A stretch of DNA of 64,000 bases, from positions 1-64,000 of the forward strand of contig MPNE01000009.1 of assembly GCA_002238865.1 (NCBI GenBank), given 5' to 3'. This DNA comes from Gemmatimonadetes bacterium bin94. Lineage in GTDB: Bacteria > Gemmatimonadota > Gemmatimonadetes > Longimicrobiales > Gaopeijiaceae. The translations under genes and the position numbers were made by a program. Under the pieces are notes generated by a model. That model ran no database searches. It saw only the letters and a program-made list of their open reading frames with translations, and was not told the DNA's origin. Below are positions 17,043-43,310 of this stretch, piece by piece (position 1 is the stretch's first letter; every line of letters begins with the position of its first letter).

Positions 17043-17737
17043 CCAGAGTTCCGCGAATCCTGCCGCGGTGACCCCGGATCCCATTGGCAGCCGGCCCTGC
17101 CCGACATGGATGATGAAGCCCGGACCGCACCGGTCACCGAGGTCCTGCCGGAAGGATCGGATGCCCCGGGTCATGGCCGGGCGCTGGAATGCCAGAGGTG
17201 AAGGTCGCGTTGCGGATTCGCCACAAGTTCCGGGTAGCTGCCTCGAAGGAACCGTTGCCACAGGTCCCGAGGTGACAGTGGCTGCCCGGATCCGGTCCCG
17301 CTTTTCTTTTCCCAGACCAATGGCGCGTCACCCTTGCCGGCGGTCTCGCGTCCGGACATCGGCAACAGGTGGAGGATGGCCGCGCGTCCAGGGAGCGATT
17401 CGGTGATCCTTCGATTGAGGAGCAGGTTCTGAGAGCCGGAGAGGAGAAACTGTCCGGCTCGGCCTCGGTCCTCGTCGATGAGTTCCTTGATGTAGGGGAG
17501 CAGTCCAGGCGCGAACTGTACCTCGTCGTAGATCACGGGTGGGGGAAAGCGTGCCAGGAACGACCTGGGGTCCTCTGCGGCGGAGGCGCGAATGTCGGTG
17601 GGTTCGAGAGAGACGTAGACGTAGCCGTCGGCGAACAGGTGTTTCAGCAGCGTCGTTTTCCCGGATTGCCTGGGGCCGGTGAGGACGACGGCCGGGAATT
17701 CCCTGCAAATTTGCAGTTGAAATGCAAATATGCATGC
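17043..17737 (-). pseudogene. AAA_14/DUF4143-type ATPase remnant with internal deletion
   Basis: On the minus strand the N-terminal half of an AAA_14 ATPase is clear. Walker A is LTGPRQSGKTTLL, then YVSLEPTDIRA, Walker B-like PPVIYDEVQFAP, sensor QFLLSGSQNLLL, AGRAAILHLLPMS and LWQRFLRGSYPEL. The frame then stops abruptly at 17171 after HLWHSSARP, where intact members continue into the DUF4143 domain. A piece resembling the family C-terminus (DLGDRCGPGFIIHVGQG, ending AELW) follows immediately in another frame at about 17156-17043. Roughly the middle third of the normal 380-400 residue protein is missing, so this is a decayed gene. The start is uncertain because no good start codon precedes FQLQICREFPAVVLTG. 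Confidence 0.8.
17703..17716. other. 14-bp perfect palindrome at the start of the ATPase remnant
   Basis: CTGCAAATTTGCAG is its own reverse complement. It is followed by a further ATGCAAAT copy and ATGCAT, forming a small AT-rich island in GC-rich DNA just where the ATPase frame begins. It could be an operator or a recombination remnant. No function is shown. Confidence 0.4.
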
Positions 17738-17784
17738 GACACGCTTGCCCCACGTAGGGCCGAGGACCGATGATGGCTGGGAGC

Positions 17785-18165
17785 CTATCCATCGCTCAAC
17801 CTGGTCGAATCCGGCAGCGGCCACGCATCGCCGCCTTCGGGCACCAGTCCCCGGCTCTCGATCAGATAGCGGAGAATCGCGTCGTACTCGTTGTCGGGCA
17901 AGCTGCCGGGTGCTTCGTGCGGCATGGCCACCCGCAGGTAGCGGTCGAGCTGTCCCACGGTGGAGTACGCGGCCAGGACGCCGGGCGTGACGGCGGCCCC
18001 GATCCCGTTAGGCACGTCATGGCAGTAGCTGCACCGCACCGTGTAGGCCCACTCGCCGTCGACGGCGGGGGCGGGCGGTTCGGAGTCGCCGCCGCACGCG
18101 GAGAGCGTACAAAGGGCGGCCACCCCTGCGAGCCGGGGAAGGGTCGGGCGAAACCGGCGGGTCAC
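17785..18165 (-). CDS. Class I-type cytochrome c lipoprotein, partner of the molybdoenzyme
   Basis: About 126 residues. GTG 18165 gives a short signal with lipobox LSAC, so the cytochrome is probably anchored in the periplasm. One haem site, CSYCH, lies near residue 47. A Met suitable as the distal ligand occurs in AMPHEAPGSLPDNEYDAILRYL-type sequence (the AMPH region near residue 85), typical of small c-type cytochromes. The gene starts about 15 nt after the sulfite-oxidase-like gene on the same strand, and a CTG overlapping that gene's stop is an alternative start. By analogy with SorA-SorB sulfite dehydrogenases it should accept electrons from the molybdenum enzyme and pass them to the respiratory chain. 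Confidence 0.82.
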   Translation of the reverse strand: MTRRFRPTLPRLAGVAALCTLSACGGDSEPPAPAVDGEWAYTVRCSYCHDVPNGIGAAVTPGVLAAYSTVGQLDRYLRVAMPHEAPGSLPDNEYDAILRYLIESRGLVPEGGDAWPLPDSTRLSDG

Positions 18166-18179
18166 GCGGCCGGATACCT

Positions 18180-19421
18180 TCAGGCCACGTCCACCGGGTG
18201 CGGCAGCGCGACGTTCAGCAGGTAGCCCTTCTCGTTGTACACCCCTTCGAGGGGTTGCGTGTCGCCGGCCGCGTCGGTCGCACGGGTGCGGAGCATGTGC
18301 GCTCCCGGCGTCGCCGTCCACGCCAGCTCGAAGCGGCTCCATGCGTGGGGCAGCGCGGCGGACGCCCCGATCAGCCTCGCCGGCGCCCACGGCCCGCCGT
18401 CCACGCTCCACTCCACCCCCGCCACCGGTCCCTGCGGCGAGTAGGCGTAGCCCCTCAACCGCTGCATCCCGGCGGCGAGCTGTGCGGGACGCGGCAGCGC
18501 GAGGGCGCTCTTCACGCGGCCGGTGGTGATCGCCGCCCCGTCGGCGGGCGCGTACCGGTCCGCGGGCCACTCATCCCCGACCAGCACGTACGATGTCGTG
18601 TTGCTCCTCACCCACACCTTCCCCGTAGCGACCTCGATCCGCCCCACCCACTTCACGCTGGACGATCCGACCCAGCCGGGCACGACCGCGCGCACCGGGA
18701 ATCCGTGGTCCGGCGGAAGGGGCGCGCCGTTCATGGTCATGGCCAGGATCGTGTCCGGGTGCATGGCCTTTGCGACCGGCATGGGGCGGGCCCACGCCGC
18801 GTCGTCGAGCCCGACGACGTTGACGTCCACCGCGTCGTCGCGGACCCCGGCGAGAGCGAGCACGTCGGCCAGGCGCGGGCCCCCCCACTCCGCGCAGCCG
18901 ATGGCCCCGGTGCCCCACTGGCTGCCGGACGCCGTGCGCCCCGTCACGGACTGGAAGAAGCCCCGCCAGTTGCCGGCGCATTCGATGTACGCGACCAGCG
19001 TCTGGCTGGGGAGCGCCCGCAGTTCGTCGAGGCTCAGCTCGACCTCCGATCGAGCCCCCGGTCCGCCCACCGACAGTACGTAGGTCGCGGGATCGACGGT
19101 GGGCGTGGGCGCGTGGTTGCGTACGAAGAACAGCTCGTTGGGTGTGATCAGGCCGCCCAGGTCCTCCAGGCGGGTTTCCAGGTTGGTGCCGTGCTGGATG
19201 AAGGGAGCGGGATCCTTGGTCCAGACGGACACGCCCGCGTCCGCGGCTGCACCGGCACCCGCGCCGCCACCCGCTGCGGCATCAGCCCCGGCAGCGCCCG
19301 CGCCTGACTCGGCCCCGCCGGCCCCCGACTCGCCGGCCCCTCCCGGCCCGCAGGCCGCCACGCCCATGCCTCCGGCGATCACCGCGAGGGCTTCTCTTCT
19401 GCTCAAGGCGTCCCGTTTCAT
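18180..19421 (-). CDS. Sulfite-oxidase-family molybdopterin enzyme, Tat-exported
   Basis: A 413-residue protein. The N-terminus MKRDALSRREALAVIAGG carries a twin-arginine signal followed by lipobox-like VAACG and a long Gly/Ala linker (to about 62). The Moco domain shows ELFFVRNHAPTP and the ligand cysteine in YIECAGNWRGFF (Cys148), and the C-terminal dimerisation domain is Ig-like (GYAYSPQGPVAGVEWSVDGG). It probably oxidises sulfite, or a related oxyanion or sulfoxide, in the periplasm. The following cytochrome gene supports a SorAB-like dehydrogenase rather than an oxygen-using oxidase. Start 19421 is the first Met matching the Tat motif. A remarkable triple repeat lies 38 nt upstream of the start. 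Confidence 0.88.
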   Translation of the reverse strand: MKRDALSRREALAVIAGGMGVAACGPGGAGESGAGGAESGAGAAGADAAAGGGAGAGAAADAGVSVWTKDPAPFIQHGTNLETRLEDLGGLITPNELFFVRNHAPTPTVDPATYVLSVGGPGARSEVELSLDELRALPSQTLVAYIECAGNWRGFFQSVTGRTASGSQWGTGAIGCAEWGGPRLADVLALAGVRDDAVDVNVVGLDDAAWARPMPVAKAMHPDTILAMTMNGAPLPPDHGFPVRAVVPGWVGSSSVKWVGRIEVATGKVWVRSNTTSYVLVGDEWPADRYAPADGAAITTGRVKSALALPRPAQLAAGMQRLRGYAYSPQGPVAGVEWSVDGGPWAPARLIGASAALPHAWSRFELAWTATPGAHMLRTRATDAAGDTQPLEGVYNEKGYLLNVALPHPVDVA

Positions 19422-19459
19422 GCCGCACAGATTAGGTGGCGGGAGGGAAGCCGGCAATG

Positions 19460-19492
19460 TGTACATAAAATATGTACATAAATTATGTACAT
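19460..19492. promoter_or_regulatory. Triple TGTACAT operator-like array, 13-bp period
   Basis: TGTACAT occurs at 19460, 19473 and 19486, exactly 13 bp apart. Together the copies form two overlapping dyads, GTACATA-N3-TATGTAC at 19461-19477 and 19474-19490, which share the central GTAC. The array is the most AT-rich stretch nearby and lies in the 193-bp divergent region, 38 bp from the molybdoenzyme start and about 120 bp from the IPT-like gene. It looks like a repressor or activator site. The regulator is not identified, though TACA/TGTA half-sites are known for BlaI/CopY-type repressors. Confidence 0.65.
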
Positions 19493-19614
19493 TTTCGCGA
19501 GCCTGCGGCGGATGTGGCACGGACGGGCGGGTTGGCGCGGTCCCGCACTCTGGCCCTGCAGCCCCCGCGTCCCCACTTTGCACTGCCACGCCACAATGCA
19601 GTCGGAGGTGCAAG

Positions 19615-20232
19615 ATGTCCGTCCGTTCTTCCCGCCTCTCCCGCCTGGCCGTCGTTCTCGCCGGCGTTTCCGCCATGTCGGCCGGCAGCCCCGAAGAGGT
19701 TTCTGCGCAGCGCCGCTTCGCCACGATCGATTCCCTGCGCCACATCCAGTCGGTTGAGCCCCGCACCGGTCCGGCCGGAACGGTGGTTGAGATCTACACC
19801 GAGAACCTGCCCCCGCAGGCAAGGATTCACGTCGGGGTCGGGGCCATGCGGGCCGGGTTTGAGGCCCTGACCGAGGCCAGTCAGGACATCTGGGGCGAGG
19901 TATCGGCGTCGGTGCGGGTCCCGTCCTACGCGAACTGGGAGCGGCCGCTGGTCTTCATCGTCTTCAACGGGGTGTTCAGTCCCATCGGGATTTCGGACCC
20001 CTTCCACGTGACGAACGAGGAAGGCATGGTGCAGCGCACCGGCCGCGTCACCGACGAGGGGCTCGAGTGCGTGACCCTGCGTGACAACGACCAGTACATG
20101 TACGCCCTCAGCGGCGATGTGGGCGGACTGCATCCCGGCGACGAGGTGGTCGTCGAGGGCGCGATCACCCTGGCGGGCCAGTGCGGAGGGGCGGACGCGA
20201 TCGAGGTGGTTCGCTGGAGAGAGAGCGGCTGA
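19615..20232 (+). CDS. Exported IPT/TIG-like beta-domain protein, unknown function
   Basis: A 205-residue exported protein. ATG 19615 is preceded by GGAGG, and the signal peptide ends near EEVSA/QRR (residue about 31). The mature part begins with a phrase typical of IPT/TIG immunoglobulin-like folds (IQSVEPRTGPAGTVVEIYTENLP), followed by a second small domain with a Cys pair (LECVTL, QCGGAD). IPT domains bind or space other domains. No enzyme motif is present. It is divergent from the molybdoenzyme operon and only 59 nt upstream of the serine hydrolase, probably in one transcript with it. Confidence 0.75.
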   Translation: MSVRSSRLSRLAVVLAGVSAMSAGSPEEVSAQRRFATIDSLRHIQSVEPRTGPAGTVVEIYTENLPPQARIHVGVGAMRAGFEALTEASQDIWGEVSASVRVPSYANWERPLVFIVFNGVFSPIGISDPFHVTNEEGMVQRTGRVTDEGLECVTLRDNDQYMYALSGDVGGLHPGDEVVVEGAITLAGQCGGADAIEVVRWRESG

Positions 20233-20291
20233 CTCCGCGCTGCAGCCGCGCCACGACGGCCAGTCGCCCCATTCACAAAAGTCTGGAAGGA

Positions 20292-22280
20292 ATGATGAAG
20301 ATGCGAAGCATTGCAACCCGTGCGACCCCGATCCTGCTCACCGTGCTCGCAACGGCCTGCGCGGCACCCGATTTGCCCCCGATGCAGTCGAACGGCCAGA
20401 TCCACGCCTTCGAACTGGACGCGGAGACGTTCTTTCTGGCCGAGGTGGACCAGATCTCCCACGACTTCACGGTCACCGTCACGAGCCCCGACGGCGAGGT
20501 GCTGCGCGAGGTGGACGGCCGCACGCGCGGAATCGAGACCATCCGGTTCGAGACCGAAGCGGCGGGCGCCTACGAGGTCGCGATTACCGCCAGGGACACG
20601 ACCGACGAGGTCGGCGAGTTCAGATTCAGCGTGCTGCGGTCGGAGCCCGTTGCCACCGATCCGGCCGCGCGGCTCGACCAGCTGATGAGTCCCTGGGACG
20701 GAGATGACCGCGCCGGCGCGATCGCCGCGGTGGTCGAGGGTGGCGAGGTGACACACGTGCACGCTGTCGGGATGGCGAACCTGTCGCACGGTATTCCGTG
20801 GCAGCGCGGCACGATCTCCAATATCGGGTCGGTCACCAAGCAGTTCACCGCGATGGGCGTGCTGACGCTCCAGGCGCAGGGCAAGATGTCACTCGACGAC
20901 GACATCCGGACGCACATCCCCGAACTTCGCGACTTCGGTACGCCGATCACGATCCGCAACCTGCTTAACCACACGGGCGGCTACCGCGAGGTCTACAACC
21001 TGCTGCCGATCGGGGGCCACCAGGGCGAGGACGCGTTCGCCCGGGAGCGCGCGATCTCCATCGTGCAGCGCCAGCCCGAGTTGCAGGCGCTCCCCAACAC
21101 CGAGTGGAACTACAACAATACGGGCTACATCCTCATCTCGCTCGCGATCGAGCGGGTGAGCGGAGAGTCGTTCGCGGACTACATGCGCGAGAACGTCTTC
21201 GAGCCGCTGGGCATGGTGGACACCCGCGTCAAGATGGTGCAGGGCGAACTCATTTCCGGCAGCGCCCAGGGCTACACGGCCGAGGCGGGCGGCGGATACC
21301 GGACGACACGGGATCTCGCGGCGTCGGCGGGCGCGGGAGGCGTGTACACGACCGTTGACGACCTGACGCGCTGGATGCTCAACTACCGCGACGCGACGGT
21401 CGGCGGGGCGGAAGCCATCGAGGCCATCACGACCACGGCTGTCCTGGAGTCGGGCGACTCAACGGGCTACGGGCTGGGGCTCGGCCTGGGCGAACAGCGC
21501 GGCCGCACCCTGTACTCGCACACGGGCGGCGACATCTCGCACCGGGCCTATCTGAGCTACTACCCGGAGCTGGAGAGCGGCGTGATCGTCATGAGCAACA
21601 ACGCGGCCTTCGATCTGACGCTGGGTGGGGAAATCGGCGAGATGTTCCTCGCGGAACACTTCGACGAAGAGGAGGAGGAGGACGAAGCGGAGACTGACGC
21701 CGACGAAGCCGCGGACGAGGATGCGGGCATGTCGGACGCGCGGAAGGAAGCGATCACCGGGGACTGGAGCCTCGAGGTCCAGGGCATTTCCCTGGCGATG
21801 TCGGTTGCCCTGGAGGACGGTGACGTGTTCGTCGATGTGCAGGGCCAGGGGCGGTCGGTGGCGCGGCCGACTTCTGACTCGACACTCGAACTCGCGTCCG
21901 TGAGCGCCGAGTTCACCTTCGATTTCGAGGCCGACGGTACCACGAGTACCGGGACGCTGGTCCAGTCCGGACTCGAGATATCGATGCGGAGGGTGGATCG
22001 GGCCGGACCGGGCGAGGAGTACCTTGGGGCGTACGTCGGGCGGTACTACTCCCAGGAGCTGGAGACCTTCTACGACGTAGCGGTCGAGGACGGCGGCCTG
22101 GTCCTGCACCACATCGAGATGGCTGAACCGCTGGCGATGCAGCACACGGACGGAGACGAGTTCTCGACGGCGGTGATCTACCTCAACACCATCGCGTTCG
22201 AGCGCTCCGTCGCCGGGAGCGTCACCGGGTTTACCGTGTCGAACGGCCGGACCAAGGGGGTGCGGTTCGGGAAGATGTGA
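20292..22280 (+). CDS. Serine hydrolase lipoprotein, beta-lactamase class C family
   Basis: A 662-residue protein. ATG 20292 follows GGAAGGA, and the lipobox is LATAC. A small beta-sandwich (about 30-115) precedes the penicillin-binding-fold domain: SxxK in NIGSVTKQFTA (about 180), the YNNTGY equivalent of YxN in WNYNNTGYILIS, and HTGGDISHRAYLSYYP near the C-terminal side of the active site. A very acidic linker (EEEEEDEAETDADEAADED) leads to a C-terminal lipocalin-like beta domain. The family includes D-aminopeptidases, esterases and class C beta-lactamases. A periplasmic peptidase or esterase role is likelier than antibiotic resistance. The gene is convergent with the sugar dehydrogenase. 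Confidence 0.88.
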   Translation: MMKMRSIATRATPILLTVLATACAAPDLPPMQSNGQIHAFELDAETFFLAEVDQISHDFTVTVTSPDGEVLREVDGRTRGIETIRFETEAAGAYEVAITARDTTDEVGEFRFSVLRSEPVATDPAARLDQLMSPWDGDDRAGAIAAVVEGGEVTHVHAVGMANLSHGIPWQRGTISNIGSVTKQFTAMGVLTLQAQGKMSLDDDIRTHIPELRDFGTPITIRNLLNHTGGYREVYNLLPIGGHQGEDAFARERAISIVQRQPELQALPNTEWNYNNTGYILISLAIERVSGESFADYMRENVFEPLGMVDTRVKMVQGELISGSAQGYTAEAGGGYRTTRDLAASAGAGGVYTTVDDLTRWMLNYRDATVGGAEAIEAITTTAVLESGDSTGYGLGLGLGEQRGRTLYSHTGGDISHRAYLSYYPELESGVIVMSNNAAFDLTLGGEIGEMFLAEHFDEEEEEDEAETDADEAADEDAGMSDARKEAITGDWSLEVQGISLAMSVALEDGDVFVDVQGQGRSVARPTSDSTLELASVSAEFTFDFEADGTTSTGTLVQSGLEISMRRVDRAGPGEEYLGAYVGRYYSQELETFYDVAVEDGGLVLHHIEMAEPLAMQHTDGDEFSTAVIYLNTIAFERSVAGSVTGFTVSNGRTKGVRFGKM

Positions 22281-22308
22281 GGGTCCAGCGCCCGGCCGGG
22301 CTCCCCGA

Positions 22309-23472
22309 TTACCCCACCGGCTCCAGCCTCACGATCGGGGTCTCGCCGTCGCCGCGGGCCTCGAGGGCGACGTAGATGAAGCCGTCCGGGCCCTGGCGGA
22401 CGTCGCGCACGCGGCCCATCCCGCTCAGGATCGTCTCGCTCGCGACGACCTCCCCGTCCTCGATGGTCAGCCGATCGATGCGCTGGCCCGCGAGTCCTCC
22501 GGCGAACAGGTTGCCCTGCCACCCTGGAAACTGGTCGCCGGTGTAGAAGGCCAGCCCGGACGCGCCGATCGACGGCACCCAGATGTGCTCCGGCTGCTCC
22601 ATGCCCTCCATGTGCGTCGCTTCGTGGATGGCGCTCCCGGACCGGTAGTTCACGCCGTAGCCGATTACCGGCCAGCCGTAGTTGGCGCCCGGGGTCGAGA
22701 CGTTCACTTCGTCCCCGCCCTGAGGGCCGTGCTCGGTGGACCACACGGCGCCGGTGCCGGGCTGGATCGCCAATCCCTGCGGATTGCGGTGGCCGTAGCT
22801 CCAGATCTCGGGCCGCGCCCCTGCCTGTCCCACGAACGGGTTGTCGTCGGGGATGCTGCCGTCGTCGTGCAGCCGCACGATCACGCCATGGTGGTTCGAG
22901 ATGTCCTGGGCCGGGTGGGCCGCGAGGTCGCCGCGCGGGGGCGCCTGCCGGTCGCCGACCGAGAGGAAGAGGTAGCCCTGGTCGTCGAAGGCGAGCTTGC
23001 ATCCGTAGTGGCCGTTGCCCTCGGAGACCGCCTCGAAGATCTCGTCGGTCATGGTGAAGCGGTCGTTCTCGAAGGTGCCGCGGATCACGGACGTCGTGCC
23101 GCCCGCCGAGTTGCCGGTGGCCTTGGAGTAGCTGATGTAGATCAGGCGGTTGGTCGCGAAGTCCGGGTGGGGGAGGACCTCCAGCAGTCCGCCCTGGCCC
23201 CGCGCCACGACTTCGGGGATGCCCTGGACCGGGTCGGGGAGGAGCACGCCGTCGCGGACGATGCGCAGCGTGCCGCCCCGCTCGGTGACCAGCATGTCGC
23301 CGTCGGGGAGGAATGCGATGGACCAGGGCACGACGAAGCCGTCGGCGACGGTGACGACGCGATAGTCGTGCAATGCCGTGCGCATCACGTCGGATTGGGC
23401 GCTGGCGGGGGACGCGGCCAGGAAGAGGCTGGCAGCCACTAGTAGGGCGAAGGTGGTGCGGGACGTTTTCAT
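22309..23472 (-). CDS. PQQ-dependent aldose sugar dehydrogenase (YliI/soluble GDH-like)
   Basis: A 387-residue periplasmic six-bladed propeller enzyme with a Sec signal ending ASPASA. The soluble quinoprotein glucose dehydrogenase marks are present: VPWSIAFLPDGDMLVTERGG, RGQGGLLEVLPHPDF, SVGDRQAPP, ISNHHGVIVRLHDDGSIPDDNPF and EIWSYGHRNPQGLA with the catalytic His region. WSTEHGPQGGDEVN provides likely Ca/PQQ contacts. It would oxidise aldoses to lactones using PQQ, delivering electrons to a carrier. No pqq biosynthesis gene is in this window. An 8-bp inverted repeat lies 19 nt upstream of the start codon. Confidence 0.92.
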   Translation of the reverse strand: MKTSRTTFALLVAASLFLAASPASAQSDVMRTALHDYRVVTVADGFVVPWSIAFLPDGDMLVTERGGTLRIVRDGVLLPDPVQGIPEVVARGQGGLLEVLPHPDFATNRLIYISYSKATGNSAGGTTSVIRGTFENDRFTMTDEIFEAVSEGNGHYGCKLAFDDQGYLFLSVGDRQAPPRGDLAAHPAQDISNHHGVIVRLHDDGSIPDDNPFVGQAGARPEIWSYGHRNPQGLAIQPGTGAVWSTEHGPQGGDEVNVSTPGANYGWPVIGYGVNYRSGSAIHEATHMEGMEQPEHIWVPSIGASGLAFYTGDQFPGWQGNLFAGGLAGQRIDRLTIEDGEVVASETILSGMGRVRDVRQGPDGFIYVALEARGDGETPIVRLEPVG

Positions 23473-43268: not shown

Positions 43269-43310
43269 TATGTAAAGTGGAGTTTCCAGTTTGACAACTG
43301 CAGTTTACAT
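43269..43310 (-). promoter_or_regulatory. Promoter/operator-like island upstream of the aminotransferase
   Basis: On the minus strand TTGTCA (43297-43292), a 17-bp spacer and TACATA (43274-43269) form a sigma70-like promoter about 40 nt before the start codon. Outer arms ATGTAAA (43270-43276) and TTTACAT (43304-43310) and the inner dyads CAGTT-TGAC-AACTG (43287-43300) and AACTGCAGTT (43296-43305) overlap it. This nested symmetry suggests an operator. The right edge runs into the thrC stop codon. Confidence 0.55.

Follow-up and report, generated by a model that had tools for sequence, protein, structure and literature searches.

An array of three TGTACA(T) half-sites upstream of a sulfite-oxidase-like gene of Gemmatimonadetes bacterium bin94 is real, non-random and part of a species-specific set. 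About ten such arrays lie astray in this genome, and there are hardly any in its close relatives. The repeated word and both spacings of these arrays are those of the toxin-antitoxin (TA) operators of the genus itself, which is why we read them as orphan operators. Judging from sequence, the chances are about even that the array is an orphan YefM/Phd-type operator, to which antitoxin complexes would bind and repress the sulfite-oxidase-like gene.

The array and its genetic context

The window, i.e. the whole stretch of 64,000 nucleotides that was analysed, is the start of contig C14 in a genome of 4.42 Mb in 83 contigs. Below, G000 denotes this genome and C1 to C80 its contigs; other G numbers are compared genomes and L numbers are loci. 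The array (positions 19460 to 19492; TGTACATAAAATATGTACATAAATTATGTACAT) displays the three half-sites at an exact 13-bp period that had been reported in an earlier, sequence-only reading of this DNA. The two overlapping 17-bp dyads described there are both exact, with 0 mismatches: GTACATA-AAA-TATGTAC (19461 to 19477) and GTACATA-AAT-TATGTAC (19474 to 19490) have the central half-site in common. As far as the letters can tell, this geometry also supports the protein binding proposed at the time.

The flanking genes are those that had been described. On the minus strand, the gene of a sulfite-oxidase-like molybdopterin enzyme (18180 to 19421; PF00174, Oxidored_molyb, E 7.5e-52; PF03404, Mo-co_dimer, E 5e-5), whose product has a leader of the twin-arginine type as judged by eye, is followed by a c-type cytochrome-like stretch (17785 to 18177, minus strand; PF13442, E 8.7e-6) that scores 26.4 bits, just under the Pfam cut-off of 27. 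On the plus strand, a gene for a DUF5818 protein, exported as judged by eye (19615 to 20232; PF19135, E 3.4e-7), precedes that of a serine hydrolase of the Beta-lactamase family (20292 to 22280; PF00144, E 6.5e-61). The array sits in the 193-bp divergent gap between the sulfite-oxidase-like and DUF5818 genes, 38 bp from the start codon of the former and 122 bp from that of the latter. No sigma-70-like promoter was found in 17500 to 22500, array included, and the terminator scan returned one site, at 21900, versus 1.6 expected. The array is not placed upstream of a TA operon of its own: none of the 13 matches to PF02604 (E up to 0.01) is on contig C14, in agreement with the earlier statement that the regulator is unlinked.

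With a GC content of 0.47 in 19400 to 19499 versus about 0.65 to 0.86 around, the array forms a GC-poor island. The pattern GTACATA-N3-TATGTAC occurs twice in the 64 kb, even with up to 3 mismatches, for a shuffle expectation of 0.06, and five of the seven TGTACAT words found on both strands of the window (1.0 expected) belong to the array. A chance origin was rejected, as the shuffle expectations and the reversed-pattern controls described below are far below the counts.

Arrays with the word and spacings of toxin-antitoxin operators

Over the whole genome, TGTACA-N0-25-TGTACA has 26 matches versus one for the reversed pattern, and thus the window array belongs to a family; a family of sites across the genome, as envisaged in the sequence-only reading, is supported. 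With spacers of N0-10, there are 24 pairs in this genome versus 0 for the reversed pattern, and 0 to 7 in each of 58 relatives (controls 0 to 3). When one mismatch was allowed in TGTACA-N7-TGTACA, 31 of 59 genomes had a match; this genome has 8 versus 2 for the control, and the counts outside it are near control. The AT-rich one-mismatch loci that we examined are mostly yefM operators or parts of arrays of a different, genus-wide word described below. A one-mismatch N7 site of G010 (L063) has no TA gene called nearby.

We kept 12 places, on contigs C1, C14 (the window array), C25, C26, C34, C37, C42, C45, C57, C72 and C80 (two). Ten of these arrays comprise 22 of the 26 exact pairs; C1 and C80b were added despite one or two inexact half-site ends. 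Four pairs were dropped for spacings outside the common classes (C13, N9; C72:15391, N15; C78, N0; C80:123938, N18); C12:16514, inside a predicted gene, and C25:101977, in which one GTAC core is lost, were left out too. The 24 spacings between the half-sites of the kept arrays are 14 bp (10), 13 bp (8) or 9 bp (6), a narrow list that partly reflects selection by spacing; before selection, 22 of the 26 pairs are still at 9, 13 or 14 bp. A layout of four half-sites in ~42 bp, spaced 13/14 - 9 - 13/14, recurs at C25, C26, C42, C72 and C80. The C37 array is spaced 9-14, and the window array alone is spaced 13-13, devoid of the 9-bp junction.

Two of the 12 places are linked to TA modules. At C1, the half-sites precede a pair of yefM-yoeB-like genes (PF02604, E 3.7e-22; toxin identified by eye), and the array of C25 ends 2 bp before the gene of a PhdYeFM antitoxin followed by that of a PIN toxin (phd-vapC). 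The C25 array is spaced 14-9-14, a layout identical to those of the unlinked C26 and C42 arrays, and of the six arrays that contain a 9-bp junction, five have no TA genes next to them. We analysed the 110 bp upstream of each of 86 genes for Phd/YefM-family antitoxins of the genus, selected among the matches listed. Among those matches, this genome included, GTAC pairs at 13 bp are present in 12 of 12 yefM-type regions and pairs at 14 bp in 7 of 7 phd-vapC regions of the C25 type; neither spacing is found in the 67 other Phd-family regions among the matches listed. The six congener operators of the C25 type are single 14-bp pairs, and no congener TA operator contains the 9-bp junction, both among the matches listed. 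In G028, which belongs to another genus of the same family, TGTACA-N7-TGTACA is found ~20 bp upstream of a yefM-like gene (L069). Upstream of 17 of the 67 other Phd-family antitoxins among the matches listed, we observed CTAG pairs at 12 to 13 bp, in the form of paired ACTAGT-like hexamers (L319-L334, L354, L372-L375). The Phd family thus seems to vary the hexamer and to keep the pair.

Like these operators, the window array has palindromic TGTACA cores in at least two copies, and its 13-13 spacing is that of the cognate yefM operators of the genus. This match of the word and of both spacings to TA operators was absent from the sequence-only reading.

The other ten places, that of the window included, are unlinked to TA modules. 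Nine occupy gaps between genes, in no case convergent ones, according to a simple gene caller. Neighbour genes come from that caller; ten of the proteins were run against Pfam and the others were named by eye. Pfam identified a beta-lactamase-family enzyme and an MBL-fold protein next to the C26 array, an amidohydrolase at C42 and a FAD-binding protein at C37. By eye, the neighbours are a STAS-like protein at C72, an M20-like peptidase, a beta-propeller protein and a nitrilase-like gene at C80, a hydrolase and an AraC-like stretch in pieces at C34, and a beta-propeller protein at C57; at C45, the array forms part of the coding sequence of a BNR-type gene. With neighbours so mixed, and TA modules among them, the sulfur or molybdenum regulon that had been envisaged was rejected.

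The genus-wide element and other explanations

The main rival explanation, somewhat unlikely in our view, is that the array belongs to a repeat of tandem dyads scattered over intergenic regions, either REP/MITE-like or serving as a protein-binding element throughout the chromosome, and that it has no specific role at this promoter. An element of this kind is present in the genus. Its junction, TTNCATAATGNCA, has 142 matches in 22 of the 23 genus genomes (controls 0 to 1 each), with 2 to 13 copies in 21 genomes, one in G017 and none in G009; this genome has two. We examined 130 of the 142 junction loci (L278-L307, L376-L475). Their consensus is roughly TGTMAWSTNNASWTKACA, i.e. two tandem 18-bp dyads TGTMA-N8-TKACA separated by a 3-bp spacer and 21 bp apart (n=130). 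As 11 of the 13 central bases were imposed by the search, conservation is forced in the centre and free in the outer parts; in the 130 aligned arrays, conservation stops sharply at the edges of the element. The flanking genes are oriented ++ in 37 cases, -+ in 28, +- in 23 and -- in 23; eight copies are inside genes, and 11 have one neighbour missing. The element is thus mostly intergenic, without promoter preference. In 1.05 Mb of further sequence, made of overlapping loci with the window included, 20 arrays with at most 2 mismatches were found versus 0 for the control; some of these loci were chosen for related reasons, and we claim no density. The window itself harbours a weak copy with 2 mismatches (43271 to 43309).

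In three genomes (L289, L381, L404), a tyrosine-recombinase-like gene, identified by eye, has a genus-word array ~80 to 200 bp from its 3' end; arrays flanking both sides of the gene, as considered for transposon or integrase ends, were not seen in these three. Upstream of one antitoxin gene of G013 (L342) there is a genus-word array where the orthologs share another sequence. We rejected genus-word arrays as Phd operators, as the 18-bp dyad occurs in 1 of the 86 Phd upstream regions among the matches listed. We know of no protein named as a binder of this element in the parts of the literature that were consulted.

The genus element and the TGTACA arrays are alike in layout and differ in word (TGTMA...TKACA versus TGTACA) and in unit length (21 bp versus 22 to 23 bp). 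A common origin is thus possible, and the differences themselves argue against the arrays being copies of the element, as does the exact agreement of their word and spacing with TA operators. Convergent gaps hold 0 of the 9 intergenic unlinked TGTACA arrays versus 23 of 111 genus-word arrays, numbers too small to separate the two.

The comparison of orthologous loci bears on the same question. It covered the gaps or segments of the window, C42, C45 and C72, out of a set that also includes C26, C34, C37, C57 and C80. Part of the window locus was matched in all 22 congeners, and ten have both genes in one locus; in these ten, the gap between the sulfite-oxidase-like and DUF5818 genes is devoid of TGTACA pairs, and conservation in relatives, which the sequence-only reading had proposed to look for, did not emerge. 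Taken as a whole, that earlier interpretation is partly supported. In G013, the matches to the window locus are on different contigs; there, one of the three recombinase-like genes mentioned above lies, with its genus-word array, upstream of the sulfite-oxidase-like gene. An AT-rich genus-word array is present in 7 of 20 congener gaps at C42, with 3 mismatches in one case, and in one of the six aligned gaps at C72. Three of the four comparable loci (C42, C72 and, via G013, the window) therefore have a genus-word array near in some congener, which favours a dispersed repeat. At C42, however, the array of this genome and those of the congeners are ~45 bp apart in the gap. The C45 segment has neither a TGTACA pair nor a genus-word array in any of 16 congeners, relative to which the BNR-type gene is longer by a net 9 bp, in frame. 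This gain within a gene also speaks for a repeat; on the other side, there is no clear duplication at C45, the sole locus alignable through the array, and neither a target duplication nor an empty site was shown.

Similar sequences in distant genomes are a further argument for dispersal. Among stretches of GTDB representatives, the four-half-site pattern was found in 38, all from Prevotella, Prevotellaceae, Paraprevotella or Tannerella MAGs, and also in one viral contig stretch. These Bacteroidales TGTACA-N7/8-TGTACA-N3 arrays are scattered in a few MAGs, with many copies and tandem runs in some genomes (L195-L232); their spacers look genome-specific. Crude gene calls for 39 groups placed 23 inside genes (mostly short doubtful ORFs), 5 in --, 5 in +-, 4 in ++ and 2 in other contexts. 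The arrays occupy gaps of every orientation, convergent included, and they look like dispersed repeats, which weakens any argument that such arrays are necessarily operators.

According to another explanation, which we consider improbable, the array is the operator of a TGTACA-binding regulator other than an antitoxin, e.g. of the PadR kind or a factor acting at nfo. Most of the unlinked arrays of this genome precede genes, and TGTACA arrays also occur upstream of genes in other genomes. In G007 (L182) and G018 (L179), three to four TGTACA hexamers at an exact 12-bp period precede an nfo-like gene (endonuclease IV, by eye), and G021 (L476) has an identical array, with a right-hand gene similar to that of G007. 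In G014 (L478, 1152 to 1167), a PadR-like gene (by eye) is preceded by TGTACA-N4-TGTACA at a distance of ~35 bp. Some 12-bp TGTACA pairs of congeners are inside coding sequences, e.g. that of a phosphate-binding-like gene (by eye). The nfo-like and phosphate-binding-like cases show that the word also occurs outside TA modules. However, the nfo and PadR spacings are 12 and 10 bp rather than 13, 14 or 9 bp, and among the neighbours of the kept arrays, read by eye apart from the ten proteins run against Pfam, the TA modules were the only regulators noticed besides the AraC-like pieces of C34.

That the array is the operator scar of a lost TA module would fit its word and spacing and the contig devoid of PF02604 matches, but it is very improbable: it requires some ten independent losses, the ORFs that surround the gap showed, by eye, nothing resembling an antitoxin or a toxin, and the gap has no TGTACA pair in ten congeners.

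The proposed orphan operator and its known counterparts

If the array is an orphan YefM/Phd-type operator, each TGTACA hexamer would be the core of one antitoxin-dimer site, and the three hexamers could accommodate up to three dimers in line. The 13-bp steps would bring adjacent antitoxin or TA complexes into contact, so that they may bind cooperatively. A complex positioned ~40 to 70 bp upstream of the start codon would block the promoter of the sulfite-oxidase-like gene and perhaps also the divergent promoter, 122 bp off; the block would be lifted upon degradation of the antitoxin or a change in the toxin ratio. The unlinked yefM-yoeB-like module (G000:C1) is the first candidate for the binder because of the 13-bp spacing, the phd-vapC module (G000:C25) using 14 bp. 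We infer the identity of the binder, the cooperativity and the repression from these correspondences.

Several observations argue against an antitoxin operator. The arrays are spaced by 13 to 14 bp, whereas the E. coli sites are 12 bp apart; only the window array is 13-13, and the 9-bp junction is mostly in unlinked arrays. The failure to find a sigma-70-like promoter in 17500 to 22500 counts on this side as well. One array (C45) is intragenic, and that of the window is missing in 10 of 10 congeners. TGTACA pairs also occur outside TA modules, at nfo-like and PadR-like genes, at the one-mismatch site of G010, in coding sequence and in Bacteroidales.

A wider and rather doubtful proposal is that, in addition to the dispersed element of the genus, this species has acquired a second set of sites, built on the TGTACA word that its own YefM and Phd antitoxins use, by spread of that word to about ten places; three of the four comparable ones have the genus element nearby in a congener. 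TA complexes might then act as chromosome-wide binders wiring stress to unrelated genes. To our knowledge, the evidence that type II antitoxins control genes outside the operon that encodes them comes from few cases. Some ten unlinked arrays with the word and the two spacings of the TA operators would make this question testable in a single genome. We found no report of orphan TGTACA arrays in the parts of the literature searched, which is not a claim that they are absent from print.

The closest known systems are the YefM-YoeB and Axe-Txe operators. In the consulted part of the relevant report, YefM of E. coli and Axe of E. faecium recognise palindromes that come in pairs, the centres of their TGTACA cores being 12 bp apart (PMC7730913), and another, likewise consulted in part, describes cooperative binding of YefM-YoeB that is disturbed by altered spacing (PMC3920265). 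The window array resembles them by its tandem TGTACA-core palindromes at a fixed spacing, for which cooperative binding would be expected. It differs by its 13-13 bp spacing instead of 12 bp, also the case for the genus' own yefM sites at 13 bp, by three cores instead of two, and by adjoining a sulfite-oxidase-like gene rather than a TA gene. With phd-vapC operators of the C25 type it has TGTACA hexamers in common, but it is spaced 13-13 and does not have the 9-bp junction. Multi-copy, species-specific arrays of short tandem units of ~23 bp recall BrickBuilt and other REP/MITE repeats. We rejected the BrickBuilt MITE of P. gingivalis because its 23-nt unit is different; it also has terminal inverted repeats, and 'TGTAC' is absent from the main text of its description, as far as that was consulted. 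Finally, SavRS of S. aureus and MqsA are, in the consulted parts of their reports, precedents for antitoxin-type sites at the promoters of unrelated genes. Binding was demonstrated in those systems, whereas here it is deduced, for a set of about ten arrays.
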